Shown here: positions 5,343-44,254 of the stretch, piece after piece
How the letters are laid out: each line of letters opens with the position of its first letter
How positions within the stretch are numbered: position 1 is the first letter of the stretch
Source of the DNA: Candidatus Gastranaerophilales bacterium
Lineage (GTDB): Bacteria; Cyanobacteriota; Vampirovibrionia; Gastranaerophilales; Gastranaerophilaceae
Assembly: GCA_947589705.1 (NCBI GenBank)
Contig: CANQCO010000004.1
Span: 1 to 44,254, forward strand
Reading direction: 5' to 3'
DNA: 44,254 nucleotides
Position numbers and translations under genes: made by a program
The notes under the pieces: generated by a model
What the model was told of the DNA's origin: nothing
Databases searched by the model: none
The model's input: only the letters and a program-made list of their open reading frames with translations

Positions 5343-7085
5343 CTAAACAGAACTATTTTTACATAAAAAATCTGCTAACGGAGTTACTATCATGCCATTT
5401 AAAGATTTATCTGTTTCTCTAAGTTTTTTTGAAACTCTGTCTATATCATCCGTCCATTTAAAATAGTCATTTATAAATTTTTCTCCGCTGTTAAAATTTT
5501 GAGAAAGCTGGACTTTAATTATTTCAGAAAGCATTTTGTTAGCAGTTGAAACCATTTTATCTGTATTAATGTTTATAATTCCGTCTTTGTCTACTAATAT
5601 AGCACCTTCTTTTATAAAATAATATGCCTGCATGACTGTTCTTACACGGTGGGCTTGCGATAGTTCCGGTTTAGCTTTTAAAAAGCAGTCAGCACCAAAA
5701 GTTACAAGTATTTGTTTTTTTTCTTCTTCAGTATATACACCTGCATTAACAAGACAGTCAAGAAGAGCCAAAGAACCCATATCCGCTTTATTTTCTTCAA
5801 TAATATTCTTATATTTTCCCAATGCTTCCGTACCTGATTTTGGTCCTAGTGAGTGAACATTTTCATGTCCTATTGTAAACCAATGGTCTGCTTCAGGATT
5901 ATACCATTTATGCAGTTCGGGATTTAATGTCGCATTTAATCTCTTTTTCCTTCTTTCAAGTGCTTCAGGTGAATTACTTGTTCTTATTTGTCTGTGATAT
6001 ACATTCCTTCTTCCGCCGCCTATTGTAAGTGACAACTTATCATTATTTGGAAGATTTTGGGCTATTGTAATACCACCTCTGTAGGCGCCTTCATCCCCTC
6101 TTAAAGATACTATATCAACATCAACCATTGTTTGAAGATTATCATCATCGGATGATATATTTTGTTCATATTCTTCTTTATACGGCATATTTTCAGCCAT
6201 TAAAGGAAGATAATTTTTTATTTTAAGTATATCTTGAGTTCCTTTTTCGTTTACTATACCTACTCTTGTACCTATTGAGTCTTTTGATATCGGATTTATT
6301 CCGTTTTTATCAAGCAGTTCTTTTAATTCTTCATCCTCTATAACAGTTCCTGTTAGTAAATCAGCATATTGTTCTCTTGATATTGTAAATTCCAAAGGAG
6401 TATCTTGAAGTGATGCCCATTTTTTGTCCGCTTTAGCGTCTAACATAGGGTCATTTCCCCTTAATGCTTTTACTTGAAGTAAAAGATATTCATTAAAATC
6501 TTTGTTTGTTGAAACTATTGCAGCTTTTTCAAGTTCATCTGCTATATTATTAAATTCTTCTTTAAACTCAACTGTATAATCAACGGCTTTTAAATATTTG
6601 CCGTCTCTTTTTACTATAGTTCTTTGATTTAATATATTTTTTACTTCTTCTGTTTTTCCCTCTTTTAACATACATTTAAGAATTGAATGCAGTTCTTCTT
6701 TAGTAATATCTGAAGGATAGAATGCTTTTCCTTCCTTTTCAACAGCGTTTTTCAAGAGAATTACTTTATTTGATTCAGAATCAATTCCTATTATTCCAAG
6801 TTGTGCGCAGAATAATATTTTTGTAAGTTCTGCTTCTTTATTGCCGTTTTCCGTTTCTTTCTCTAAATATTTTAGAAAAGGAATATTTAATTCATTATCC
6901 TGCTTCATATATATTAAATTTGCATACTCCGCAGCTTTAACAAGATGCTGCAATGCCTTTTTATCGCCATCTGGTAAATTATTATATTCTATTGCATCCT
7001 TATCAAGAAGCGGTTTTCTTATTAAATAATCTTTATCTGTTCTTTTTTCAAGTTCTTCAAGTGGCAAATTTAGTTCAAATTCCAT
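5343..7085 (-). CDS. Zinc metallopeptidase related to dipeptidyl peptidase III (M49-like)
   Basis: This 580-residue protein has no signal peptide, so it is probably cytosolic. The zinc site reads HENVHSLGP at residues 407-415, with H407 and H411 as ligands and E408 as catalytic base. EENKAD follows at 430-435, where E431 matches the third zinc ligand of the M49 EECRAE motif. The M49 family itself has HExxGH; this shorter HExxH-x-LGP form is known from bacterial DPP III relatives. The N-terminal 350 residues are acidic and helical and contain two IS.. REQYADLL-type stretches without a recognised domain. The ATG has a TGGAGA ribosome site. The gene follows a membrane protein by 12 bases and is likely in an operon with it. 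Substrate is unknown. Confidence 0.68.
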   Translation of the reverse strand: MEFELNLPLEELEKRTDKDYLIRKPLLDKDAIEYNNLPDGDKKALQHLVKAAEYANLIYMKQDNELNIPFLKYLEKETENGNKEAELTKILFCAQLGIIGIDSESNKVILLKNAVEKEGKAFYPSDITKEELHSILKCMLKEGKTEEVKNILNQRTIVKRDGKYLKAVDYTVEFKEEFNNIADELEKAAIVSTNKDFNEYLLLQVKALRGNDPMLDAKADKKWASLQDTPLEFTISREQYADLLTGTVIEDEELKELLDKNGINPISKDSIGTRVGIVNEKGTQDILKIKNYLPLMAENMPYKEEYEQNISSDDDNLQTMVDVDIVSLRGDEGAYRGGITIAQNLPNNDKLSLTIGGGRRNVYHRQIRTSNSPEALERRKKRLNATLNPELHKWYNPEADHWFTIGHENVHSLGPKSGTEALGKYKNIIEENKADMGSLALLDCLVNAGVYTEEEKKQILVTFGADCFLKAKPELSQAHRVRTVMQAYYFIKEGAILVDKDGIININTDKMVSTANKMLSEIIKVQLSQNFNSGEKFINDYFKWTDDIDRVSKKLRETDKSLNGMIVTPLADFLCKNSSV

Positions 7086-7097
7086 ATTAATTCTCCA

Positions 7098-8864
7098 TTA
7101 ATAACTCAATAGTACGGTATCAGGAACTTCATAATAATAGCAAGAATGGCATTGGGCTTTTGCATAAGGGGAACCATCTATACCTTTAAATCTGGATTTA
7201 TAATTTGCTATTATTTTTGAAGGGAAATCCGGTTCTGTTATACAAAATGCGTAGGCATTATCCTGTTCTTTTGAATCAAGAACTTTTATTTTCATAAATC
7301 TTGTATCTTTATAAAATACCAGTACAGGTTTTCTTTCTTTTGTGGTCTTATCTGTAATTTTATTATTTGTCCAATATTTTTCACCTGTTTTCTTTATGTT
7401 TAGTGTTTTTAAAATACCGTTTAATTCGGGTATATTAGGTAATCTGCCCCCTTTTTTTGTACAATAAGAAGCTGCTTCATTTTTTGATTTCATAATGGCA
7501 TTTGGTTCTAATAATATTATAAATGGTGAACAGAAACTTTGTTTCCATATTTGCGCTTCATTTTCTATACTTAAGTTACCGTAATCCATGAACGGATAAT
7601 AACACAATCTTATATATTTTTTACTGGCAGATGGTGTTATTCTCATTGAAAGAGTTTGGTCATTTGTTTCATATTTTGAGTTTATTTTTAATTTCGGATT
7701 ATAGTCATAACCTTTTTTAATTAAGTTTATCATTATATCAGAAGATACTTCTTTAACCGAGAAATTTACAAATTTCTTTTCAGTATCAGGGCTATAGACA
7801 ATAATATCATCATTCGTTTTTACTTCTGTTTTTTGATAATTTTGATCCAAAGTCATAGTATTTTCTTCGGGAGTATCAAAATTCCTGTAAAAATGATTTC
7901 TCTTAAATATGTTATTGTTATCATCTTTATTTGCTACGCAATGCAGTGTTGGAGAAATATTTTGATTATATTTAACTACATTATAGGACATATTTTTAAA
8001 ATGTATAAGGACAGGGACGGAGCCATCTTTATTACTTGTCCAATAATAATCTTCTCCAAATATATTAAATTTATTGAAGGCAATATTGTACATTTCAAGA
8101 TAATTAGGTACTCTTGCACCTATAGATTTACAGAATTTTTCAGCCTCTTCATAGCTGTTATATTTGAATGATTCTGAAGTATATGCAAATGGCACTACAA
8201 CTTTTGCATAGGAAAGTTTTTTCTTTCCGTATTCACTTATATTTTTTATTTTTAGATATTGATTAGAATACCGAAAAGGCATTTTTACTATTTTATATTT
8301 ATCTTGTTTGTCTATGTTTATTGCTTTTACCGAGTATGAAATAAGTTTAAATCCTGACATAATTAGAAATATAATAAAAAATACAATTAAATATTCCATA
8401 CTTTGAGAATCTTGCTTGTTTGATGAAATTCCGGGCAGTATAAATGCCGGAAATATAAAACAAATATATGCTAATATCAATATGGATGGTAACAATAATG
8501 ATAAGATATTTAAAAAGTATGTAAATATAAATGCTAGGTTTAAAGCTTCACTATTTATAGTATAAAGGCTTACTATACTATATACGAATATTAAAAATAT
8601 GCAGAACATAAATGTAGTTATATTTAGAGGATAGTTTATATATAAAGCTTCTCTTTTCATTTCATTTATATTCTTTTTTGATTTTTTTATAATTAAGAAT
8701 CCATGAAGAAAAAATAAACAAATATTTAAGAAAATACTTATTAAAACAAAATTAATTTTATTACTTCCGCAGAAAATAAAGGCAGGCAAATTTGAAAGTA
8801 TTACTAATGACCCTATTATTATGTTAATATTTTTTAAAATGTTTAAAGATTTTTCCTGTTTCAT
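7098..8864 (-). CDS. Membrane protein with two DUF1566-like (lectin-fold) modules
   Basis: Numbered from a TTG at 8873, this protein has about five hydrophobic helices within residues 15-180, then a large domain outside the membrane. Two related modules follow. Module 1 (about 225-315) carries EEAEKFCKSIGARVPNYLEM then DYYWTSNK. Module 2 (about 450-545) carries NEAASYCTKKGGRLPNIPEL then EKYWTNNK. This A-x(2)-(F/Y)C-x(4)-G-R-(L/V)P-N ... YWT pattern is typical of DUF1566/FGE-like folds. The C-terminus has a CHSC pair. I prefer the ATG at 8864, preceded by TTGGAA, over the in-frame TTG at 8873. It heads the minus-strand trio with the M49-like peptidase. Function is unknown, possibly surface recognition. 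Confidence 0.62.
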   Translation of the reverse strand: MKQEKSLNILKNINIIIGSLVILSNLPAFIFCGSNKINFVLISIFLNICLFFLHGFLIIKKSKKNINEMKREALYINYPLNITTFMFCIFLIFVYSIVSLYTINSEALNLAFIFTYFLNILSLLLPSILILAYICFIFPAFILPGISSNKQDSQSMEYLIVFFIIFLIMSGFKLISYSVKAINIDKQDKYKIVKMPFRYSNQYLKIKNISEYGKKKLSYAKVVVPFAYTSESFKYNSYEEAEKFCKSIGARVPNYLEMYNIAFNKFNIFGEDYYWTSNKDGSVPVLIHFKNMSYNVVKYNQNISPTLHCVANKDDNNNIFKRNHFYRNFDTPEENTMTLDQNYQKTEVKTNDDIIVYSPDTEKKFVNFSVKEVSSDIMINLIKKGYDYNPKLKINSKYETNDQTLSMRITPSASKKYIRLCYYPFMDYGNLSIENEAQIWKQSFCSPFIILLEPNAIMKSKNEAASYCTKKGGRLPNIPELNGILKTLNIKKTGEKYWTNNKITDKTTKERKPVLVFYKDTRFMKIKVLDSKEQDNAYAFCITEPDFPSKIIANYKSRFKGIDGSPYAKAQCHSCYYYEVPDTVLLSY

Positions 8865-8894
8865 AATTTCCAATATTTATAATTTACAATAAAA

Positions 8895-14370: not shown

Positions 14371-15885
14371 ATGAAAAAAATCCTCTTAATATTAGTTATA
14401 TTAACTCTTATATGTATAGAATGCGAAAGTTCTATACAAGAATCTATATTGCGTTTTACATCAAAAAATCCAATATTACAAACTTATACGGAAATAATAT
14501 ATTCTAAAATATATTCCGTAAAAACATTTTATAATGATGTACTTGATAAAATGAATAAAAAGGAATATTCATTCCCTAATATTGTGCCGTCGGGGGATAT
14601 GCCTTCTTTATATACAGCTGTAAGAAAAGATAAAACAGGCGAAATAAAAGATTTAGCGGAACTTTTTATGAACCCTGAAACTAAAGAAGAAAACAGATTA
14701 GAAATAATAGATAATATATTATTTAAAATGTCAGGTTCTGAAAATATAGATGAGAACTCAAGAGGTGAATATATAAATGCAAAACATTTAAGTACGCTCG
14801 AAAAGGTTATGGGAAGAAAATTCTTTTCAACTTATGATGCAAGTCATGACGGAGAAAACCCGAAAAATCCCAATCTTGTTGCGGGACAATTGCTTGAAGA
14901 CGGATATTATGTATTAAGGTTGTATTATTACGCTTCATTAATGAATGAAATGCTTTTCTCCAATCCCGATTTGAAAGATACAAAACCTAAACAAAATTTA
15001 TATTTTTTAAATATGAAAAAAATAAATAAATATTTAAATAAACAAATTGAAATAGATGAAACAAAAGGTAAAGAAAAGGTCTATCAGACAGCAGCCGTTA
15101 TAAAAGGTTTGGGGCTTTGGGATAAAATTTTGGATGATAAAGCATTTGATGTATATAATGATAACTGTTTTTATACGTTGTTTACGCAAAATGACAGAGA
15201 CCTTAAATGGAAGATAGATTCATTGGCAAGAGTTCCTTTAAAAAAAGCACATGAATCAAAGCAGGCTTCAGAATGTTACAGAGCAGCCGAAGATGAGGAA
15301 TTAGACGGTTTACATTTGAGAAAAGGCGACGATGTAATATATGGCGGGAACAAAAATGACCGATTTATAGGCGGAAGCGGTAATGATATTTTAGATGGTG
15401 GCGATGGTAACGATATTATTGACGGCTGGCTTGATGATGACATTATATATGGCGGAAACGGAAACGACATTTTAAGAGGCGGCCAGGGAAATGATATTAT
15501 AATTGCAGGTGACGGTGATGATGAAATATATCCCGACCATAATGATGAAAATGAAACTGCAGAAGGTGACGATATCATAAGAGGCTCTCAAGGTAATGAT
15601 AATATTGTCAGTGTCTTTGGAAATGATACATACATCTTTAATAAAGGCGACGGAAATGATATTGTTTCTGACTTTAAAGGTAATGATACAATATATTTCG
15701 GAGACGGAATAACATGGGCTGATTTATCTTTTATTAAAGAAAAAGATGATATGCTGATAACGATAGATGATACTAAAGATTCAATCCTCATTAAAGATTG
15801 GTTTAAAAATGAAGATAATATAATAGAAAACTTTGAATTTAAAACAGGAATGGCTCATAGAGCGAATGAAATAAAAATAGAATAA
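14371..15885 (+). CDS. Secreted RTX calcium-binding repeat protein
   Basis: This 504-residue protein starts with a hydrophobic signal-like segment (KKILLILVILTLICIEC), followed by about 290 residues of unrecognised mostly helical sequence. From about residue 318 it carries tandem RTX nonapeptides of the GGxGxDxUx type (GGSGNDILDGGDGNDIIDG, then GGNGNDILRGGQGNDIII), which bind calcium in a beta-roll. A second short set with FGNDTYIFNKGDGNDIVSDF passes into a tail like the haemolysin-type calcium-binding related domain (DTIYFGDGITWADLSF ... DSILIKDWF). RTX proteins normally leave through type I secretion without an N-terminal signal. No type I transporter gene is nearby. Function is unknown. 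Confidence 0.8.
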   Translation: MKKILLILVILTLICIECESSIQESILRFTSKNPILQTYTEIIYSKIYSVKTFYNDVLDKMNKKEYSFPNIVPSGDMPSLYTAVRKDKTGEIKDLAELFMNPETKEENRLEIIDNILFKMSGSENIDENSRGEYINAKHLSTLEKVMGRKFFSTYDASHDGENPKNPNLVAGQLLEDGYYVLRLYYYASLMNEMLFSNPDLKDTKPKQNLYFLNMKKINKYLNKQIEIDETKGKEKVYQTAAVIKGLGLWDKILDDKAFDVYNDNCFYTLFTQNDRDLKWKIDSLARVPLKKAHESKQASECYRAAEDEELDGLHLRKGDDVIYGGNKNDRFIGGSGNDILDGGDGNDIIDGWLDDDIIYGGNGNDILRGGQGNDIIIAGDGDDEIYPDHNDENETAEGDDIIRGSQGNDNIVSVFGNDTYIFNKGDGNDIVSDFKGNDTIYFGDGITWADLSFIKEKDDMLITIDDTKDSILIKDWFKNEDNIIENFEFKTGMAHRANEIKIE

Positions 15886-30130: not shown

Positions 30131-30592
30131 ATGCCATTCAGATACAGACTCCAAAAAGTTTTGGATTTTAGAATAAAAAAGAAAGAAGAACAACTCCAAG
30201 AAGTATTAAAAGCTAAACAAGAGGTAGACAGGATTCAACTTTTAATTGACAAAAATAATGAGGAAATATCAGGTGTAATTCATATTATGCATACAACAAC
30301 AGATTTTAGTCAAATTGACTCTTATGATAAGTATTTAAAACACCTGTATGAAAAAGGAGATGAACTCGAAAAACAGTTACAAGAAGCTATAAGAGTTTTA
30401 AGAATTGAAGAGGATAAACTTATTGAAAAAGAAAAAGAAGTAAAAGTTCTCGAAAAACATAAAGAAAAGGCTCTTGAGACATATAAAGAAGAGGAAAAAG
30501 CTCTTGAAAATAAACAGTTATCGGAAGTAGCAGTACAAAAATATTTTCAAAAAACAAAAGAAAAAAAAGAAGAAGAAAACGAAGATTTATAA
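30131..30592 (+). CDS. fliJ: Flagellar export chaperone/stalk protein FliJ
   Basis: FliJ is the central stalk of the flagellar export ATPase and escorts export chaperones. The 153-residue protein is nearly all coiled coil and begins with the typical FRYRLQKVLDFRIKKKEEQL. Length and charge pattern fit the family. Its partner FliI is at the left end of the window, about 30 kb away, instead of adjacent. The next gene begins 11 bases on. The Shine-Dalgarno site is weak. Confidence 0.85.
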   Translation: MPFRYRLQKVLDFRIKKKEEQLQEVLKAKQEVDRIQLLIDKNNEEISGVIHIMHTTTDFSQIDSYDKYLKHLYEKGDELEKQLQEAIRVLRIEEDKLIEKEKEVKVLEKHKEKALETYKEEEKALENKQLSEVAVQKYFQKTKEKKEEENEDL

Positions 30593-30603
30593 AAAGGGTA
30601 ATT

Positions 30604-31218
30604 ATGAATATTAAAACAGAATCAAAACAAAATATTGAAAATACAAAAGAAATGCAAATTCCTGTTATGAGTAAGGAAGAAGAAAATATAATGTCAGAAG
30701 TTAATATGCCTTTTTCTGAAATTCTATCGGGTGCAATAAATAATTTTGATACGAATGGTTTACCGGATATTGATTTTGATTACGATTCATTGTCAATGAA
30801 TATAGAAGATGCAATGTTTTTTATAAATTTAACGCATGAAGGGCAATTTACGGTTGAAGTTAATAATGAAGGAAATTTTCAATCAATTTCTCAAATTGAC
30901 ACTGCTCAAAATGTTGTATCAAAAAGAACTGTTGAAGTTACAAATCAACTGACCAATTTAATAGAAAAAGCTCAAAATACGCAAAAACCTGTAAGAATCT
31001 CATTTGATAATGATGTTTCGGTTATTTTAAAAATAGATAAACACGGGAAAGTAACAGCAGAATTTATTCCCGGAAATATAGAAGTTGAAAATTATTTAAG
31101 AAATAATATTTCTTCTTTAAAACAAAGATTTGATGAACAAAATCTGCCGTACAACGATTTATTATACAGACAAAATAACAGACAAAACAGAAATAAAAAA
31201 GAAAGAGGGGAAAAATAA
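30604..31218 (+). CDS. FliK-like flagellar hook-length control domain protein
   Basis: This 204-residue acidic protein lies between fliJ and a hook/rod gene, where fliK is often found. Its C-terminal half (about 120-185) fits the FliK C-terminal pattern: a strand IDKHGKVTAEFIPG followed by VENYLRNNISSLKQRFDEQNLP, resembling the usual substrate-specificity switch domain. The N-terminal part is short and low-complexity compared with the long ruler of typical FliK proteins (often above 350 residues). AAGGG precedes the ATG. The identification rests on position and this weak match. Confidence 0.5.
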   Translation: MNIKTESKQNIENTKEMQIPVMSKEEENIMSEVNMPFSEILSGAINNFDTNGLPDIDFDYDSLSMNIEDAMFFINLTHEGQFTVEVNNEGNFQSISQIDTAQNVVSKRTVEVTNQLTNLIEKAQNTQKPVRISFDNDVSVILKIDKHGKVTAEFIPGNIEVENYLRNNISSLKQRFDEQNLPYNDLLYRQNNRQNRNKKERGEK

Positions 31219-32054
31219 TGCGTGATGCATTTATTAATGCTTTAAATACCCAAAGAATTACAAATGAATGGGTAAATGATATAGCACAAAACCTTGTAAA
31301 TGCGTATACACCGGGGTATAGAGAGAAAAAGTTTACATTTAAAACATTCTTAGACGGGTCTATAGCGGATACATCATTAAGGAATCTCGGACAGGGAAAA
31401 TCTTCTCCGGGTACTTCCGATGAAAATATTTTTTTAGAAGGTTCAGGTTATTTTGTTTTAAGAAATGACAAGGGAAGATTAGTTTATACAAGGCTCGGAG
31501 AATTTAAGTTTGATGGAGAAGGAGTATATAGAAGTAAAGACGGGCAAGCTGTTCAAGGATATATACTTAATGATAAAGGAGAAATAATGAACGGCGCAAA
31601 ACCTGTTGACGCAGATTCTTTTGTAGATACTGCATTTGACGGTGGTGCGGCTTCTGTTCCTACTACAAATATTAAATTATGGAGAGATCCTTCTAACGGT
31701 AAATATCTTGGTAAGTACGAAGAATTTGAATTTAAAGATGACGGAATCTTATATGGTAAAGCGGATGGCGGAAAAGTTACTACTCCTTTGTATAAAGTTG
31801 CTATTATTAATTTCCATAATCCGCAGGAGTTATTTGAAGTCACTGAAGGGCAATTTATAGAAACTGTTGAATCAGGAAAACCTGTTGTTGGTCGAGGTGA
31901 GGTAAGAAGCGGTTTAATTGAACTTTCTAATGTTGATTTTGATGCTAATACTTCATATTATCAACAGGCTCAAATGCAATTGGAGTTAGCTAATCAATTA
32001 ATTAAATCTCATAAGCAATTATTACAAAATGCAATAGAATTAATGAGTAATTAG
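31218..32054 (+). CDS. Flagellar hook/rod protein of the FlgE/FlgF/FlgG family
   Basis: This 278-residue protein has the family ends: an N-terminal helix IAQNLVNAYTPGYREKKFTF, close to the usual IANN-x(2)N-x-x-TPGY, and a C-terminal SGLIELSNVDFDANTSYYQQAQMQLELANQLIKSH, close to SNVDxxxE..QRxYQAN. The middle (GSGYFVLRNDKGRLVYTRLGEFKFD) is the hook/rod core. The length is nearer FlgF/FlgG than FlgE. It starts one base inside the end of the FliK-like gene (TAATG). A terminator follows, so this three-gene unit ends here. Confidence 0.83.
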   Translation: MRDAFINALNTQRITNEWVNDIAQNLVNAYTPGYREKKFTFKTFLDGSIADTSLRNLGQGKSSPGTSDENIFLEGSGYFVLRNDKGRLVYTRLGEFKFDGEGVYRSKDGQAVQGYILNDKGEIMNGAKPVDADSFVDTAFDGGAASVPTTNIKLWRDPSNGKYLGKYEEFEFKDDGILYGKADGGKVTTPLYKVAIINFHNPQELFEVTEGQFIETVESGKPVVGRGEVRSGLIELSNVDFDANTSYYQQAQMQLELANQLIKSHKQLLQNAIELMSN

Positions 32055-35278: not shown

Positions 35279-38200
35279 ATGAGAATAAATGGAATTATAA
35301 AAGGGTACACACCCGTTTTTAAAAGTGTTAGAACAGATAAAAAAACAATAGGAGAATTAAAAAACGGAACAAATCCAATATTAGACAATAAAACAGAAAA
35401 TATAAGAACAGCATTAAATAATTTTACTAAAAACACGGATAGAGATTGTATTCAATATTTATTGGACGTAGCTGAGCACATAAGATACGGTCAAGGCGGT
35501 AATTCCGAATTCAGAGAAATAATAGATGAAACAACAACTGCAGGGGAAGAAAGAGAGAATACTGATTGGTTAGAATTACTCTCTTCAACTATTAAAAAAG
35601 CATTAGATTCATCGAAAGATGATGTTAGCGATTTACAAGGTGAATATGATAGAATTTTTAATACAAAAAGACCATTAACATCCGAACAGACCGATATTCT
35701 TGAAAAAAGAAAAATACTTCATTCAAAAGTAATAAACCAAGGACAGACTCTTAATGATTCTCAAACTCTTACAAGAACTGCAAAAATACTAAAAAATATT
35801 GACTACTTTATATCATCTTCAGAAATTTCTGACATACAGAAACAAAAGTGTTTAGATTTATTCTTATATTTTATGAGTGATGAATATAAAATAAATCCTC
35901 AGTTAGAGGATAAAAGACTTCAAGTAATTGAAGAAATGCTTGATGATATGCTCATAAAAACACCGGAGAGTAAGATACTAACTACAAAAACCGTAGATCA
36001 AAAATATTCCGGAATATGTGCTGCAATAGCTATTTGCAGAAAGGCAGTTGCATATGAAGATAAGGTTAGATATATGGAAATAGTTCTCGATGAATTAAAA
36101 GATTCTCCTTATATGAGTGTATATGATGTAACGGCATTGGGGACAGGAAAAAAGATAGAAATACCAAAGATAAAAATTGATTATAAATCGGCATTGGCGC
36201 AAGGGTATAGAATATTGGATGCTTCAGCTCATATATGGATGCAAAATTCACATACTGCAGGTAATAGTAGTATTCAAACAGAAAATTATATAGCATTTGA
36301 GCCTGAAAGTTATGGAATATATGATGATTCAAGCTGGTATATCGGAATAAATCCGGAATTAGAAGGCGAAAAGAAGCTTTTACAAGCTTTAATAAAAGAA
36401 AAAGAAGCCTTAGACTCTGTATTGAAAGTAAAAAATGATATAAAATCCGCAAATCAACAAATAGGTGCCGTAAAAAAAGAAGTAATATTTATTCAGGGGA
36501 AGATTAATGCAAGTTTAAATTCTACTTTAAAATCATTATTCCCTGATAAAACACAAACAGAAATTACCAAAATCAGACAAAATTTGGGTGAGTTTTATAA
36601 AGGCAAAAATGGTAATGAAGCAAATATAGCAAAAAAAATGCCAGGATATTTGAAAATTGGAATTATATCAGATTATTTAAAACAACAAGGAAATGTTTCT
36701 GTTGAAAATGAACAAGAATTAAGAAAAAAATCTAAATTAATATTACAAATGCTTTCAGAATATGATGTATCTGACAAGAAATTAATAAAATTGAAAAAAT
36801 ACAACTCAAAAAGGGGATTATATTTATATTATAAAAAACTTTTTGACCTTGCAGCAGCTGACAGATTGGCGATAGAAGCTGATATTAATTTAGAGGATGG
36901 TGTAACAAGATATGAAAAACTTTTAGGACTTCCTCCTCGTAACATACAGATTGTTAATTATTTAAAAGGTTTAAAAAATAATCAAAATGAAGAGATTAAG
37001 AAAGATATTGAATCAGATATTTTAAAAATTGAAGCTGTTATTCCTCATAATTTGGATAATATCGCAAAAAAGTTTTTTGGAATGGATGTTAAAGGTTTAA
37101 CTAAAAGTACCTATGAAAGTATTCTTGAATCTGTAAAACAAGGTGATTCAGATATTATAGATGATGTTGCAATGACTTTTTATCTTGATAACAATAAGGA
37201 AAAGGTTATTAATTTTTTGAATAAACAGATATCGAAACTGAACCAAAATAATGTATCAGCATTTGAATTACAAGATTCAATAAGAATGCTGGGATATGAA
37301 AATCCGATACAACTTATATATAAAACAGTGTCAAATTATATTGATAAATTGGAAAACGGGATATCTGAAAAAGAATATAAAGATTTAATATATCGTTTTG
37401 GTGGAGAAGATAATATTACCGACACTATAAACTCAATGTGCAATAAAATTGATGAATTATTGGAATTATATAATAACATTCAAGAAAAGTGGAATGTACC
37501 TTTAAGTTCAGAAGAAATAATTAGAAAAAAGGAAAAAGATAAATCTATAATTTCTAAAAATGATTTAAGAATTTTATATAACAGATTTATGCAAATAAGA
37601 AAAAGGATTTCAGAACAAGAAAATATAGAAAATTTAAAGGACAGACAAAAGGCAGAAGCTGATTTATATGAATTTACTAATGAAGAAATAGAAATATTAA
37701 AACTGATAGAAAAAAATATTCCTAATATGAAAAAGTATTGTATTAGGGCATATAATGCACTAAATCAAGGAATGAAAGAAGATTTAGAAAAATTATATTC
37801 GGATATAGGTATGATAAGCGGTCAATTTTGGGTAGGAGAAGAAGGTTCTACAGGATTAAGCACCAATGAAGAAATAAGAATTATGGAACAGATGACTGAT
37901 AGACCGTATCATAAAGAGACAGATATAGAAAATGCTGTAAAGGAAATAAGAAAAGGACAAGGAAGCGGAATAATTGCTTATAGTGTAGATGATAAGGATT
38001 ATGCTTTTCATGCTCAGTATGTCCCTTCTGTAACATCTGAAACTTTTTATAGTCCTAAAACCGGTGAAAAACATATTCAAGATGTAATTTGGACTGATAA
38101 TTCTTGGGGAAACAGTGAAAAAAAATATTTTTGGAATGGAAGAGACGGCTTTTATTATACTGACTACAATAGCGGTTATGGCTGGAAAAAAGGTTTTATT

Positions 38201-41038
38201 ATTTCTGAAGATGGAAAAATTGGACATCGTATAAATACCATAAAAAATTCTGTGGGATTTAATGCAAAAGAAAGGGAAAGATTTCAGCTTGTATCGGATA
38301 TGATATTGCCCGGTACACCTGTTGAAGCTTATCAAAAACTTTATAAAATGTTTCAAGCTATAATAAATATGGATCAAAACGAAAAGTTTTTGGAACAATT
38401 AGAATCAATATTAAAAAAAGGATATAAAATAGATAATAGATATCTTGAAGGTATAGATGGTTGTTCAGAAGTTGTAATAGAAAATTTAAGAAAAAAAGTA
38501 TCTGAATTAAAAAGCGTAGAAGACTTTGAAAAACTTCCAGAGGATGATTATTTAAGATTTGTATTAGAATTGTTAAGTTTATATAAATCAACTAATAATC
38601 CTGAACTAAAAGATAGTGTACTTTATATAACTACAAAAGAAGAATTAGAACAGCAAAAAGAGGAGTTTCTAAAGGAAAATATTGATGAAATAGCTTCTAT
38701 TTTCGCAAAATCAAATAAAAGTGTTGATAATCTTTTCGTAGATTGTATTGAAGATATAAAAAATGTTTTTACCGAAATTGAACAAAAATACAATATGGAA
38801 TTTGATGATGATTCTATATCAGAAAATTCGTTAAAAATATTTTCTGATATAGAAATTGGTAAAAATTGGGATGGAAGTATAAAATCTCTGGAAAAAGCTC
38901 TTTTAAATGAAACTCAAAAAGTTTCATCAAGTTTATTTGAAAATCCGCAAATAATGCAGTATTTTAATAATGAAGTTGAAAAAATTATAAAAGAGAAAAT
39001 AGATACAACATTAAGAATAAAGGATTTAAACAGTTCCGTCCTTCAAAGTTCTCCTTTATATGAAATGATTATTAATGCGGTAGATAAATATATGAATCCT
39101 AAATCGGATGAAGATTTATTAGAATTTTTAATAGGATTACAAGACCTTGATAAAAAAACTGCTGATAAATTTTTTGATATGTTCACTTATGAAGATGTAG
39201 GTTTAAATTTTAAACATCCCTACGAATATGTTAAGAAATTGCAGCATTGTGACGGTGAAACAAATATTGATTTTTACGAGGTTGTAACTTCAAATTATAT
39301 AGCAAGAGAACTTGAAGGAGTATTAAAAAATAGACATTTTAGTAATTTAGATCAAGTTAATGAAGATGAAATTGTCACGCCGGAAGAATTATATAGGCAT
39401 ATATATGTGAAGCTATCCGAGCTTGATGTACAAAAATATATAAAGAAATATGCGGTTGAATATTTCAATAAATATAAGGTACGACAAGCATTCCCTCAGC
39501 CTGTTGTTATATCAGATGAAAATATTTGTGAAACATTAGAAGAATTTTTTAAATATATAGAAAAACAAGTAGGTGATGTTGAAACTTTAAATTATATTAT
39601 TGAGGTATTAAATGATTATGAAGATATAACAAAATATTTAAAATCTATTTCATTATATTCAGCTTTACAAAATCAAGAATATTATAAAGCTAATGATGAA
39701 AAATCTATAAATGAAATAAAGAAATTAAAAGAAAAAATATTAGATTTTAAAAATTTAATTGATAAAGATGCTTCTTTTCCTGGAGTAGCAGATTCACTAA
39801 AAAATATTTATAATTTTCTTTCAACTCCAGACGGTATAATAGATTGTGTAAAAATATCAAAAGAACTGGATAATATAAATGAAATAATGAATGTTTCAGA
39901 TATTTTAAAATTAAATGAATCTTTAGAAATAAGACGCAAGATTATAGATGAACTGAATAAACAAATAGGAAATTTTGTAAATTCAAATATAGAGCCTTCA
40001 CATAGGCAATTGGCAATTAAGAAGCTTAAAACAGTGGTAAATTTAATTAAAAAAGGAGCAGATGAAGATGTAATATCGGAATCAAAAGATGACTTTACCG
40101 ATTTTACCTTAGCTAAACATATTTTGAAAAATCCGCCAGTAATGCTGCGTGAATGGGTAAGGCTTTTGCAGGAAGGAAAATCTGAATCTGTTGAGTTTCA
40201 TTCAATTAATAATTATATAAAAGAAGCATTAAAGGTTGCACAGCAGACTAACATTCAATATAAACTTGTGCAAAATGCCCATGATGGTATTAGTTCTAAA
40301 ACAAGTGACTTATTATCTATGTTCTCTGTTAAACTAGAAGATGGTCCGAGTCTTTCAATGGATAGTAATGTTGGAATGTTATATTTGATTGAGCAGCTTA
40401 ATAATATCAGTGATAATAACCAGACATTAAGGTTATTTTTGAATCAAACCGGATTAGGACAAAGAGCATTAAATGCTCTAATTGACCATTTTGATTTCCA
40501 AGATATTTATAATAGTGCTGTTAAGATAGCTAATGAAGTAAAAAAAGATTTTATAGATTTTTACGAAATTTACAATTTATCTAATCAATTTATTAATAAT
40601 AGTAATATCCAATATAAATCACTTAAAGATGCTGTTAATAATATGCTAATTTTCATAAAAAGGAAATATGAAAATAAGGAAAGTGATATTTATAATGAAT
40701 ATATTAAATATATGGAATCAATTGTTGACGATAATGAATTACAAAAAGTTCCTGTTTCAATGATAAATAATTTAATAAGTGGTTTTAATTCTAGTATAAT
40801 TTCTTCCTTAAACAACAGTATTGTTCAAAAATTTCAACAGCTTGCAGAATTAGCAGATGATGTATTACCGGATGATGTAGACTTGATGTATAATATAGAT
40901 GTACCAAAGGATTGTGATGAGTATTCTATGCGTGAATTAAAATTTAAAGAGTCTGAGAATTATCGTGAAAAAATTAGAGATTTAATTCTTGATATTTCAG
41001 CACTTATAAAAAGTTTAAATGAGCAAATAGAAAGTTAA
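35279..41038 (+). CDS. Giant protein with split papain-like cysteine peptidase motifs
   Basis: This 1919-residue protein has no signal peptide or membrane helix and is mostly helical and coiled coil. Q241-KYSGI-C247 keeps the Gln-x5-Cys spacing of papain (Q19, C25). H911 is in YAFHAQYV and N941 in WTDNSWG, like the papain His and NSWG asparagine, 30 residues apart. The Cys and His are about 660 residues apart, against about 134 in papain, so a large helical region appears inserted. Residues from about 1000 to 1919 show no known domain. The N-terminus RINGIIKGYTPVFKS resembles other proteins here. AAAGGG precedes the ATG. A target-cell or host effector role is only a guess. Confidence 0.72.
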   Translation: MRINGIIKGYTPVFKSVRTDKKTIGELKNGTNPILDNKTENIRTALNNFTKNTDRDCIQYLLDVAEHIRYGQGGNSEFREIIDETTTAGEERENTDWLELLSSTIKKALDSSKDDVSDLQGEYDRIFNTKRPLTSEQTDILEKRKILHSKVINQGQTLNDSQTLTRTAKILKNIDYFISSSEISDIQKQKCLDLFLYFMSDEYKINPQLEDKRLQVIEEMLDDMLIKTPESKILTTKTVDQKYSGICAAIAICRKAVAYEDKVRYMEIVLDELKDSPYMSVYDVTALGTGKKIEIPKIKIDYKSALAQGYRILDASAHIWMQNSHTAGNSSIQTENYIAFEPESYGIYDDSSWYIGINPELEGEKKLLQALIKEKEALDSVLKVKNDIKSANQQIGAVKKEVIFIQGKINASLNSTLKSLFPDKTQTEITKIRQNLGEFYKGKNGNEANIAKKMPGYLKIGIISDYLKQQGNVSVENEQELRKKSKLILQMLSEYDVSDKKLIKLKKYNSKRGLYLYYKKLFDLAAADRLAIEADINLEDGVTRYEKLLGLPPRNIQIVNYLKGLKNNQNEEIKKDIESDILKIEAVIPHNLDNIAKKFFGMDVKGLTKSTYESILESVKQGDSDIIDDVAMTFYLDNNKEKVINFLNKQISKLNQNNVSAFELQDSIRMLGYENPIQLIYKTVSNYIDKLENGISEKEYKDLIYRFGGEDNITDTINSMCNKIDELLELYNNIQEKWNVPLSSEEIIRKKEKDKSIISKNDLRILYNRFMQIRKRISEQENIENLKDRQKAEADLYEFTNEEIEILKLIEKNIPNMKKYCIRAYNALNQGMKEDLEKLYSDIGMISGQFWVGEEGSTGLSTNEEIRIMEQMTDRPYHKETDIENAVKEIRKGQGSGIIAYSVDDKDYAFHAQYVPSVTSETFYSPKTGEKHIQDVIWTDNSWGNSEKKYFWNGRDGFYYTDYNSGYGWKKGFIISEDGKIGHRINTIKNSVGFNAKERERFQLVSDMILPGTPVEAYQKLYKMFQAIINMDQNEKFLEQLESILKKGYKIDNRYLEGIDGCSEVVIENLRKKVSELKSVEDFEKLPEDDYLRFVLELLSLYKSTNNPELKDSVLYITTKEELEQQKEEFLKENIDEIASIFAKSNKSVDNLFVDCIEDIKNVFTEIEQKYNMEFDDDSISENSLKIFSDIEIGKNWDGSIKSLEKALLNETQKVSSSLFENPQIMQYFNNEVEKIIKEKIDTTLRIKDLNSSVLQSSPLYEMIINAVDKYMNPKSDEDLLEFLIGLQDLDKKTADKFFDMFTYEDVGLNFKHPYEYVKKLQHCDGETNIDFYEVVTSNYIARELEGVLKNRHFSNLDQVNEDEIVTPEELYRHIYVKLSELDVQKYIKKYAVEYFNKYKVRQAFPQPVVISDENICETLEEFFKYIEKQVGDVETLNYIIEVLNDYEDITKYLKSISLYSALQNQEYYKANDEKSINEIKKLKEKILDFKNLIDKDASFPGVADSLKNIYNFLSTPDGIIDCVKISKELDNINEIMNVSDILKLNESLEIRRKIIDELNKQIGNFVNSNIEPSHRQLAIKKLKTVVNLIKKGADEDVISESKDDFTDFTLAKHILKNPPVMLREWVRLLQEGKSESVEFHSINNYIKEALKVAQQTNIQYKLVQNAHDGISSKTSDLLSMFSVKLEDGPSLSMDSNVGMLYLIEQLNNISDNNQTLRLFLNQTGLGQRALNALIDHFDFQDIYNSAVKIANEVKKDFIDFYEIYNLSNQFINNSNIQYKSLKDAVNNMLIFIKRKYENKESDIYNEYIKYMESIVDDNELQKVPVSMINNLISGFNSSIISSLNNSIVQKFQQLAELADDVLPDDVDLMYNIDVPKDCDEYSMRELKFKESENYREKIRDLILDISALIKSLNEQIES

Positions 41039-41087: not shown

Positions 41088-41363
41088 ATGAAAAAGATAT
41101 TAAAGATTTTAGTAGTATTGATGATAATATGGTCAATAAATATACCTGTATATGCCATAAATGTCGGAACATATAAAACAGAAACCGAATATGGTTTATT
41201 GGACGGATTTAAGATAAATTGGAAACGAAAAGATAAAACAACTCCGTTTATAGAACCCAGAGAAGAATCAACAAAACAGCAGTATGAAAAGGAATATCAG
41301 GATTATAAAGATTCTGAGTATGAACGTACGAAGTTTATGTATGAAGGTAAATCAATATTATAA
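41088..41363 (+). CDS. Small secreted protein of unknown function
   Basis: I start at the ATG at 41088, which has TTGGAG upstream; the upstream TTG in frame is part of that site. The 91-residue protein has a signal peptide (KKILKILVVLMIIWSINIPVYA) and a short charged mature part of about 68 residues rich in Lys, Glu and Tyr (KQQYEKEYQDYKDSEYERTK). I recognise no family. It follows the 1919-residue protein by 49 bases, so the two may be co-transcribed. A bidirectional terminator follows. Confidence 0.62.
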   Translation: MKKILKILVVLMIIWSINIPVYAINVGTYKTETEYGLLDGFKINWKRKDKTTPFIEPREESTKQQYEKEYQDYKDSEYERTKFMYEGKSIL

Positions 41364-41382
41364 AATAAAAAAAACAATAAAA

Positions 41383-41410
41383 AAAGAGAACCCTTTTGGT
41401 TCTCTTTTTT
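41383..41410. terminator. Bidirectional intrinsic terminator
   Basis: AAAGAGAACC (41383-41392) and GGTTCTCTTT (41398-41407) form a ten-base stem with a five-base loop, flanked by A runs on the left and T on the right. It can end both the small gene and the minus-strand tpsB gene that stops at 41425. Confidence 0.9.
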
Positions 41411-41424
41411 ATATATATTAAACA

Positions 41425-42581
41425 TTACAGAATGTTTGAAGTAACAGTGAAGTGGAATCTTGCAGTATCACGGTTCAAACTGTTAGCATAGTCCGGAAGA
41501 CGTTTGCCGATAGGGAAGCCCCAATACATGTTAGCAGAAATATATTTAGTAAGTTTAACAACGATACCGGGACCGGCACTCATTAAGTAATCAGCACTTC
41601 CATCAATAAATCTGTCACCGAACCAGCCGAAATCATAAAATCCTGCAAGTTGGATACTATCAGAGATAAACCCGTATTTTTCAGGAAGTAAAGCTTTTAA
41701 ACCCGGGATAGGTGTTCTATATTCTAAGCTTGCAGTAACACCATAGTCACCGATTCTGAAGCCTTCATCATAACCTCTAACAGAAGAGATACCGCCGAAT
41801 TGCATAGCTTCTGAAGCGTATAAGTGTCTGTTAGCGTACTGGGTATTAACCTGTAAAATAGCTAACTGATTTTTAGGTAATACTTGTAAACGTGCAGCAC
41901 TTGCATTAACTTTAATAAAGTTGTTGCTTGCGTAGTTTCTTGCTTTGTTGTAATCGGAAGCATCAATAGGAATACCGCCTGCAAGAGTGGTATTAAATAA
42001 CCATCTGCCGTAGTAATCATCTTTAACATCAGTTAAAGAACCTCTAAGAACTCTTGTTCTGTATGATGAATCCAGTTCAGGAATAAGACCTGATTCTGTA
42101 GAAGTATTACGCATATCTAAAGTGATATCACCGTATAATCTGTATTGGTCACCTTTAGCTAAACGTCTTGATACGCCGATATAAACATCATGTGAATCAC
42201 CTTTGATGTTCCAAGGTTTGAAGTCTTTACCCAATCTAACGTGAGAATAAGAATAACCGAGGTTTAATCTTGTATCATTTTTAGCAATCGGGATAGAATA
42301 CATACCGCCAACACCGAGAGAACGTGAAGACAAAGCCAAAGTACCCATTAAAGTATCGCCATGACCGGTAACATCATGAAGACCAGCGTATAAAACGCCT
42401 CTTTGAGTACCGATTAATTCTCTTCCCTGATTATCGTATCTAAGGTCTAAGTTAACAGGGAATCTGTCTTTTACATCAAGAGTAACATCTGAAAATTCTT
42501 CTGATTCTTCGTTATCAGCGAAAGAAACAGAACCTTTCATGTATTCTTCAGTACTCATATCAGTTAAAGCGTTACGAACAT
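41425..42581 (-). CDS. TpsB C-terminal fragment: outer membrane beta-barrel
   Basis: This frame carries the 16-strand-type barrel of a ShlB/FhaC transporter: VKDRFPVNLDLRYDNQGREL, then alternating aromatic strands with GGISSVRGYDEG (the conserved VRGY near loop L6), ADYLMSAGPGIVVK and the terminal strand ARFHFTVTSNIL with the usual aromatic end. It is open from 42582 to the stop at 41425. The first ATG is at 42558, with no ribosome site, so separate translation is doubtful. It should be expressed only as the extension of the upstream fragment. Confidence 0.85.
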
Positions 42582-43172
42582 CTTATTAAGGACTTTACCT
42601 GTTTCTATATTATTGTCTTTTAAGTAATGATCTGTAAGATAGGATTTTTTTTGCCATTTGCCGTTGTTAGCAACAACATTACCGTATTTACCTTCAAGGA
42701 TAACGATATCTACTTTACCGTTTTGAACCTTTTGAGGAGGCAGATAAGCGATTGTAGAAACGTAACCTTTGCTCTGGTAATAGTCTGTAATATCGTTAGC
42801 AGACATAATAAGGTCGTTAATTGTAACTTGTTGACCTATTTTAAAATCAACCAATCTCATTAATTTATAAGTCGGGATTTTGGTATTACCTGTGATATTG
42901 ATTTCTTTAAGTTTAAAAGAAACTTGTTTTGTGTTAAGCAAGTCCATTTTTTGACGAACTTCTTCTTCAATAACTGCAGGATCTTTAGTATCTTCAAACT
43001 TTACTCTTTCTTTGTATTGTTGAGTTTGAATAAAGTTAGAGTTGTCGATACTACCGGGGTCATAACCGCCCATTGCGCTGCCCATATTTTGAGGGTCAGG
43101 CGCTGAAAAAGCGACACTTCCAAGTATTGAAGCGAAGCAGATTAATGATGTTTTTAAAATTAAATTTTTCAT
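42564..43172 (-). CDS. TpsB N-terminal fragment: signal peptide and POTRA domains
   Basis: This fragment of about 202 residues starts at ATG 43172 (an earlier GTG at 43181 is possible). It has a signal peptide (KNLILKTSLICFASILGSVAFSA), a linker helix region, and POTRA-type folds: KLKEINITGNTKIPTYKLMRLVD and VDIVILEGKYGNV, typical of the periplasmic part of ShlB/FhaC. These POTRA domains bind the TPS domain of the exported partner. It ends early at 42564 because of the frameshift, so without a shift the cell gets no barrel. Confidence 0.85.
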   Translation of the reverse strand: MKNLILKTSLICFASILGSVAFSAPDPQNMGSAMGGYDPGSIDNSNFIQTQQYKERVKFEDTKDPAVIEEEVRQKMDLLNTKQVSFKLKEINITGNTKIPTYKLMRLVDFKIGQQVTINDLIMSANDITDYYQSKGYVSTIAYLPPQKVQNGKVDIVILEGKYGNVVANNGKWQKKSYLTDHYLKDNNIETGKVLNKMFVTL

Positions 43173-43523
43173 GTGTTCCACTCTCTATATTTATTTATAA
43201 TCAAATACTAATTACATTATACAATATAAAAGAATTATTTCTACAATAATTAAATTTTATCTTATATTTCTTTGCTATGACATAATGCAATTGTATGAAA
43301 TCCAAACAAAATTAATTTTGCAGATTCTTATTATAATTATAACAATTCTTAACATTTGAATTTTTACCTTGTAAAAAATATATTTAATAATAAAATATAT
43401 TTAGCTTTAGGGATTTTAAAGTTTTATTAAAAAAGAAAAGGAATAATAGCAAAAATATTTTTTATAAATTTTATATTTTGTCAGTTATCAAAACAAAAAG
43501 TGTTATAAAGGAGAAGTGTTTAG
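43173..43523. other. Divergent intergenic region between tpsB and tpsA
   Basis: This 351-base AT-rich region contains the control regions of both genes. A TATAAT for the minus strand (43216-43221) lies 44 bases before the tpsB ATG; its -35 is weak. For tpsA a TTGTCA (43478-43483) is found, with a poor -10. An AAGGAG (43508-43513) is the tpsA ribosome site. I see no gene, RNA or clear operator in it. Confidence 0.45.
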
Positions 43524-44254
43524 ATGAGAAGAAAGATTAGTGCAGCTATAGTAGCAGCAGGGATGATGGTAATGAACAGCACTCCGGTATTTGCGACAGT
43601 TGGTGCAAATGTATTGCCGCAATATAATAGTGGAAGTTTATTTAATAATAACGTAAACGTACAGACCGGAAGCGGAATAACAGGAACTTTTCCGGACGGG
43701 AAACCGGATATGAATGTTCAAATACAAGGTGGTGCTGGTTCTGTAGGAACAGCAAGCTGGAACAGTTTTGATATAGGTTCAAGTAAACATGTAAATTTTG
43801 AATTTACAAATAATAATCAGACATCATTAAACAGAGTAGAAGCAGCAGGCGGAATGTCACAGATATATGGGAAATTGACAAACTCATGCGGAAGTAACTG
43901 CGGATATGCTTCAACAGGAAAAGTAATATTAATAAACCCGAACGGGGTATTATTCGGAACCGGTGCTAATGTAAACTTAAACTCATTTACGGTATCGACA
44001 CTTGACGGTAATTATACACAAGGCGCAGATGAAACAAAAGGCGGCAGTTTAACATTAAAGCCAAATACATCAGAAGCATATAATGGAAAAAATAAGGGAA
44101 TAATTGCTGTAGAGAACGGGGCAACAATATATGGAGATAAAGCTGTAAACTTTGCAGCAGATAACAGAATCATATTATATGAAGGTTCAAAAATAAAAAC
44201 AAATACAGGAAACAATGCTAAATATACAAATGGCGGTGAATTAGCAATGGGCAA
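43524..44254 (+). CDS. Two-partner secreted exoprotein TpsA (haemagglutinin type), 5' part
   Basis: The frame starts at ATG 43524 after AAGGAG and is open to the end of the window (243 codons seen). A signal peptide (RKISAAIVAAGMMVMNSTPVFA) leads into the TPS domain: SWNSFDIGSSKHVNFEF, LNRVEAAGGMSQIYGKL, and the NPNGVLFG motif (with V-N-L-N-S-F) conserved in FhaB-type proteins. A CGSNC pair lies just before this. It is exported by TpsB, whose gene is divergent here and frameshifted. The passenger lies beyond the window; adhesion or toxin function is unknown. Confidence 0.9.
   Translation, partial: MRRKISAAIVAAGMMVMNSTPVFATVGANVLPQYNSGSLFNNNVNVQTGSGITGTFPDGKPDMNVQIQGGAGSVGTASWNSFDIGSSKHVNFEFTNNNQTSLNRVEAAGGMSQIYGKLTNSCGSNCGYASTGKVILINPNGVLFGTGANVNLNSFTVSTLDGNYTQGADETKGGSLTLKPNTSEAYNGKNKGIIAVENGATIYGDKAVNFAADNRIILYEGSKIKTNTGNNAKYTNGGELAMG

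Follow-up and report, generated by a model that had tools for sequence, protein, structure and literature searches.

The contig CANQCO010000004.1 (assembly GCA_947589705.1) of a Candidatus Gastranaerophilales bacterium was analysed over positions 1 to 44,254 of its forward strand; this whole stretch of 44,254 nucleotides is referred to below as the window. The subject of the analysis is a giant open reading frame (ORF) at 35279..41038 (+), which starts with ATG, runs through 1919 codons in which internal stops are absent, and encodes a protein, P0001, with a computed mass of 222 kDa and a pI of 5.1. A preliminary description of the locus had proposed that this protein carries a papain-like catalytic triad whose parts are separated by a very large insertion. 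The residues named there were indeed found at the positions and in the contexts given: Q241 and C247 lie in QKYSGICAA with a Gln-x5-Cys spacing, H911 in FHAQYV and N941 in TDNSWG. The distance from C247 to H911 is 664 residues. In papain, the spacing between the Cys and the His is 134, which accounts for the figure of approximately 530 residues put forward for the insertion. An AlphaFold2 model of residues 1-1030 (predicted local distance difference test, pLDDT, 90.7; predicted template modelling score, pTM, 0.85), a model of residues 985-1919 (pLDDT 87.3, pTM 0.75) and alignments of relatives were used to delimit the following features:

35279..41038, forward strand: giant protein P0001, intact ORF, 1919 residues
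35321..35878, forward strand: N-terminal helical domain, residues ~15-200 (helices in the model with pLDDT ~90; R18 and W97 conserved)
35876..36349, forward strand: predicted Cys-bearing papain-fold half, residues ~200-357 (secondary structure of the model, invariant columns, fold comparison)
35999..36019, forward strand: Q241 (putative oxyanion-type Gln) to C247 (putative nucleophile, at the start of helix 247-260; sequence, model, conservation)
36353..37807, forward strand: predicted helical arm between the halves, residues ~359-843 (model; the first helix has 62 residues, 359-420)
36932..37504, forward strand: removable outer arm, residues ~552-742, edges approximate (missing from nine short forms)
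37808..38317, forward strand: predicted His/Asn-bearing papain-fold half, residues ~844-1013 (model, invariant columns, fold comparison)
38009..38101, forward strand: H911 (putative catalytic His, second residue of strand 910-924) to N941 (right after strand 931-940), in DNSWG (sequence, model, conservation)
38318..41035, forward strand: predicted all-helical C-terminal region, residues 1014-1919 (model of residues 985-1919)

In the model, C247 stands at the N end of a central helix (247-260), H911 lies at the start of a strand (910-924) and N941 follows the strand 931-940. The predicted structure thus has the order of clan CA, with the Cys at a helix start, the His at a strand start and the Asn after the next strand. 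The arm between the two halves measures approximately 485 residues and is helical. When the model was compared with known structures, papain-fold enzymes (falcipain, staphopain, and calpain) ranked at the top with an aligned range that covers both halves, and the top VIA rows were the peptidases calpain and staphopain. Small papain-fold domains superpose nearly whole on the halves of P0001, as was seen for 9l5u_B (130 of 138 residues) and 8ssm_A (132 of 143). The structure prediction suggested in the preliminary description therefore yielded a papain fold, with alignments to small papain-fold domains that cover both halves, and P0001 almost certainly adopts this fold, as judged from the models. 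No OTU entry was present among the 50 fold-comparison rows listed, an absence that excludes nothing. For the model of residues 985-1919, no fold match beyond the common helical level was obtained. Within the giant gene, at 38812-38854 (+), the two arms of a perfect inverted repeat (16 nt each) enclose a loop of 11 nt.

The conservation of the putative active site was followed in two alignments, A1 (56 rows, with identities to the window protein down to 25 %) and A2 (69 rows, in which the arm, residues 359-843, makes up 47 % of the aligned protein). Q241, C247, H911, D940, N941, W943, and G944 are invariant in both. The 32 invariant columns of A2 are distributed over residues 180-321 (18 columns) and 844-982 (14 columns), with none in residues 359-843. 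Three of the 34 invariant columns of A1 are located inside the arm (R529, G672, and E752), which argues that the arm is under some constraint. Relatives lacking the putative catalytic residues had been named as what would speak against a papain-like site, and none was found. Among 111 distinct relative sequences, a count from which four ORFs matching only one half were excluded (L097, L098, and both ORFs of L119), the Gln, Cys, and His are kept in 111/111 and the Asn in 110/110, with one gap. R529 of the arm is conserved in 109 of these relatives; in the N-terminal domain, R18 and W97 each reach 110, with one gap apiece. The pattern of active-site residues in the aligned sequences is conserved beyond chance.

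The length of the arm varies among the relatives. Nine short forms do not have the stretch corresponding to residues ~552-742 (approximately 186 residues), and their Cys-His spacing is 467-490, whereas the window protein has 664 and the long forms (n = 102) have 639-765. A quick tree built from residues 15-356 requires two changes between short and long states; none of 500 shuffles gave a number as low (mean 8.8), and strongly supported branches of this tree force two such changes. It follows that the outer arm was gained or lost at least two times while the active site stayed unchanged. The proposal of a papain-like site interrupted by a very large helical insertion thus draws support from conservation, from the short-arm forms and from the comparison of the predicted fold.

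Sequence profiles did not recover this relationship. No recognised domain was found in P0001 with Pfam (E <= 1) or NCBIfam (E <= 0.1), in agreement with the earlier statement that no known domain explains the giant protein, and the profile search for papain-fold families that had been advised gave no papain-family match in Pfam, NCBIfam, or PDB sequences. A Pfam scan of all 56 sequences in A1 revealed no C1 model among the 25 of 97 families listed, and a scan of 45 His/Asn halves listed 11 families, none of them a peptidase C1 model. Nothing papain-like was obtained from PADLOC and PHROGs; the weak PHROGs matches (E 0.041 for the giant protein; E 0.00052 and 0.0066 for the small companion protein encoded downstream of it) are all to entries of unknown function. 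Within the arm, weak matches to PDB entries of calmodulin type (best E 8e-4) occurred side by side with matches to designed helical proteins, and we do not interpret them as EF hands.

The closest known systems differ from the P0001 family in profile and in build. Members of family C1 (falcipain, cathepsins, and papain) share the order of Gln-x5-Cys, His, and Asn-Ser-Trp-Gly as well as the fold predicted for P0001. However, C1 is characterized by a sequence profile and a compact core of approximately 220 residues with no long interdomain insert, whereas the P0001 family gives no profile match, has a Cys-His spacing of 467-765 instead of the 134 of papain, and the whole chain of P0001 is some 6-8 times longer. 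Calpains (C2) are recognised by a profile together with calcium-binding accessory domains, neither of which was detected in P0001 with Pfam or NCBIfam. The cores of calpain and of staphopain (C47) likewise differ in that no profile match was obtained and no EF-hand domains are established in P0001; calpain has N-P-W-G where the P0001 family has D-N-[ST]-W-G. The papain-fold toxin domains and C39-type peptidases (9l5u, 8ssm, and PCAT1 8vp5) are alike in being the small domains that superpose on the P0001 halves, but they are carried by polymorphic toxins or ABC transporters, and we know of none with such an arm. As the fold and residue order of clan CA are present in the prediction and the profile and build of C1 and calpain are not, a new family inside a known fold is indicated.

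For the arm, the LOT-type OTU deubiquitinases (LotB and LotC) of Legionella appear to be the nearest precedent at a comparable place in a bacterial clan CA enzyme. Their helical lobes of 183-210 residues are described as binding ubiquitin (PMC7690952). They differ from P0001 in being OTU and not papain enzymes, in having lobes well below the ~485 residues of the arm, and in acting in host cells; the likeness concerns how the enzyme might work and carries no claim of family. A review of the papain family states that insertions in the papain fold limit access of substrates to the cleft (PMC10380794).

From these data, the following mechanism is proposed. C247, H911, and N941, together with Q241, would constitute the active site of a papain core that comprises residues ~200-357 and ~844-1013, with the ~485-residue helical arm projecting between the halves and approximately 900 further helical residues following the core. 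H911 would activate C247 and be oriented by N941, the thiolate of C247 would attack, and Q241 would lie in the oxyanion hole, such that a peptide or isopeptide bond is cut. P0001 would then be a single-chain peptidase for one or a few specific protein substrates, in which selection and positioning of the substrate, or gating of the cleft, may fall to the arm together with the N-terminal domain and C-terminal scaffold, much as they do to the helical lobe of the Legionella LOT deubiquitinases. We infer hydrolysis, narrow specificity, and a cytosolic location; the last of these is the default because neither a signal peptide-like nor a transmembrane stretch was found in P0001 (the top 19-residue mean hydropathy is 0.99). 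That the specificity is narrow and guided by the arm is favoured by a small degree. Taken as a whole, including a single-chain specific peptidase, the reading that we prefer, if with clear reservation, is that P0001 may be the founding example of a new clan CA (papain-fold) cysteine enzyme family in Candidatus Gastranaerophilales. The family appears to be undescribed so far, as far as literature searches and family libraries go; no paper linking Gastranaerophilales with papain was found in the literature search. If the reading is correct, the papain fold gains a family that sequence profiles missed, with an interdomain insert that is by far the longest known to us. As forms with a long and with a short arm both occur in nature, what the arm does can be put to the test, and there would be a concrete function to seek in an uncultured gut lineage that ranks among the larger ones.

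The giant gene is present in all 41 genomes of the genus, one of which (G037) holds no more than a fragment of 123 residues at the end of a contig. Matches were obtained in 56/146 genomes and 21/41 genera of the family, in 94/286 genomes and 26/50 genera of the order (four families), and in 22/194 genomes of a sample of the phylum, all 22 in the family of the window. Each of these three tallies contains one weak, probably chance match (G126, G166, and G178, respectively), and as only the best few candidates of each genome were scored, absences are probable rather than proven. A scan with one genome per species gave 171 relatives; among the best 80 of 171, the titles that name a lineage are Candidatus Gastranaerophilales, Avigastranaerophilus, Melainabacteria, or an unplaced cyanobacterium, and the others say "bacterium". 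All matches obtained for the giant gene came from Gastranaerophilales-type genomes, and they are patchy outside the genus. In its own genome (2.09 Mb, 133 contigs), P0001 matches itself alone at E <= 10. A remote paralogue was considered for the weak matches in G126, G309, G178, G166, and G020, and rejected: the active-site motifs are absent from the regions fetched, and the A2 profile matched one ORF there, in a helical stretch, with a score of 10.9 (the match in G126 covers residues 1145-1323, beyond the span of A2). A viral origin was also rejected; a scan of viral contigs gave 60 pattern stretches, none of which was confirmed as a relative, and viral models gave no match at E <= 0.001 and no papain-like entry among the 50 rows listed.

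Papain folds also serve chemistries other than hydrolysis, and P0001 could act as a transamidase, acyltransferase, or deamidase, in which case its protein target would be modified and not cleaved. This is rather unlikely, although it is the strongest of the competing explanations. The third residue is an Asn within D-N-[ST]-W-G and the Gln lies six residues before the Cys, both as in papain-type hydrolases, and the enzymes in the top VIA rows of the fold comparison are peptidases. An active peptidase is quite probable.

It is improbable, in our estimate, that P0001 is an exported effector, one that needs no signal peptide, uses for instance a flagellar-type export apparatus, and has other cells or the gut as its target. 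The absence of a signal peptide and membrane helix would fit such a route, as would the first 14 residues, which are unstructured in the model (pLDDT below 50 for residues 1-8 and 10-14). FliJ-, FliK-, and FlgE/F-like genes are located upstream of the giant gene at 30131-32054, and members of these gene clusters were found near it in 38-41 of 121 loci, repeated genomes included. The genome retains FlhA, FliF, FliH, and rod/hook genes, while flagellin was not found in it and was found in only 2/40 genomes of the genus. However, the giant gene has different neighbours in other genera and occurs in flagellin-bearing and flagellin-less genera alike. A linear export motif common to other proteins was sought and not found, and a mostly folded protein of 1919 residues would be an unusual load. 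The fuller version, in which a 222-kDa armed peptidase is exported by a flagellin-less flagellar-type machine and acts on neighbouring microbes or gut proteins, is a long shot. One candidate motif, F-[KTG]-[GS] after a loose MKI start, was initially counted in 87/895 proteins versus 31 in shuffles, many of the 87 being giant proteins themselves. It was rejected, as it was not raised outside the giant-dominated set (4 versus 7.6 expected in 404 proteins sampled from the window and genome) or in a further comparison (2/26 versus 29/1213).

The flagellar-type export and basal-body set of this genome (FlhA, FliF, FliH, and rod/hook genes) was noted at L245 (6934-9036 of C25) and at 30131-32054 of the window. 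In the family, FlhA-type genes are present in 145/146 genomes and flagellin in 58/146; among the FlhA matches listed, two score classes were observed (~850-885 and 717-736 bits).

A gap of approximately 50 nt separates the giant gene from a small companion gene, which is followed by a hairpin:

41088..41363, forward strand: small secreted companion, 91 residues, signal peptide-like N terminus (start, locus, and genome comparison)
41380..41410, called on both strands: terminator-like hairpin, 13 pairs, flanked by the companion and the converging TpsB gene

The likely start of the companion, ATG 41088, lies downstream of the TTG start listed for it and is preceded by a ribosome-binding-like stretch. 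The preliminary description suggested that giant gene, companion, and palindrome form a unit. A functional unit of the two proteins, in which the secreted one might be an inhibitor or a substrate of the peptidase, is in our view improbable. The companion exists, and among loci with 600 nt or more of flanking sequence it lies 30-99 nt downstream of the giant gene in 28/32 closer loci even though the upstream neighbours vary; it is missing from L083 and from L113, L121, and L132, the last three having less than 30 % identity in A2. A common terminator follows both genes, and staphopains have an adjoining inhibitor gene. Yet only one of 33 more distant loci (L096) has the companion downstream. 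In the family it is present in 28/146 genomes, spread over nine genera; eight of these genomes carry the giant gene, whereas 19 have no match to it and one (G126) has weak partial matches, which leaves 20 of the 28 with no clear giant gene. Moreover, the companion appears to be exported and the giant protein does not. The adjacency thus stands as a local arrangement: the two genes are probably co-transcribed in this genus, and the companion is no obligate partner of the giant gene. The palindrome is an ordinary terminator. The companion itself is a small conserved exported protein of unassigned function that occurs mostly in genomes lacking the giant gene.

A catalytically dead scaffold with a papain fold would suit the large size of a protein most of which is non-catalytic, but it is very improbable, since the Gln, Cys, His, and Asn are invariant across the 111 relatives, remote ones included, and a protein devoid of activity would have no need of them.

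Downstream of the companion lies a two-partner secretion pair, TpsB followed by TpsA. The TpsB gene (ShlB/FhaC-type, 41425-43181, reverse strand) is broken up here into separate ORFs of 205 and 377 residues, whereas it is a single ORF of 580-598 residues in the relatives L017, L019, and L027; the split is either decay or an assembly error. The start of a TPS-domain (TpsA-like) exoprotein at 43524-44252 (+) is cut by the end of the window. Elsewhere in the window, two adjoining proteins of 580 and 591 residues with no Pfam match at E <= 0.001 are encoded at 5343-8873 (reverse strand), and a protein of 504 residues at 14371-15885 (+) contains four stretches of RTX calcium-binding repeats.
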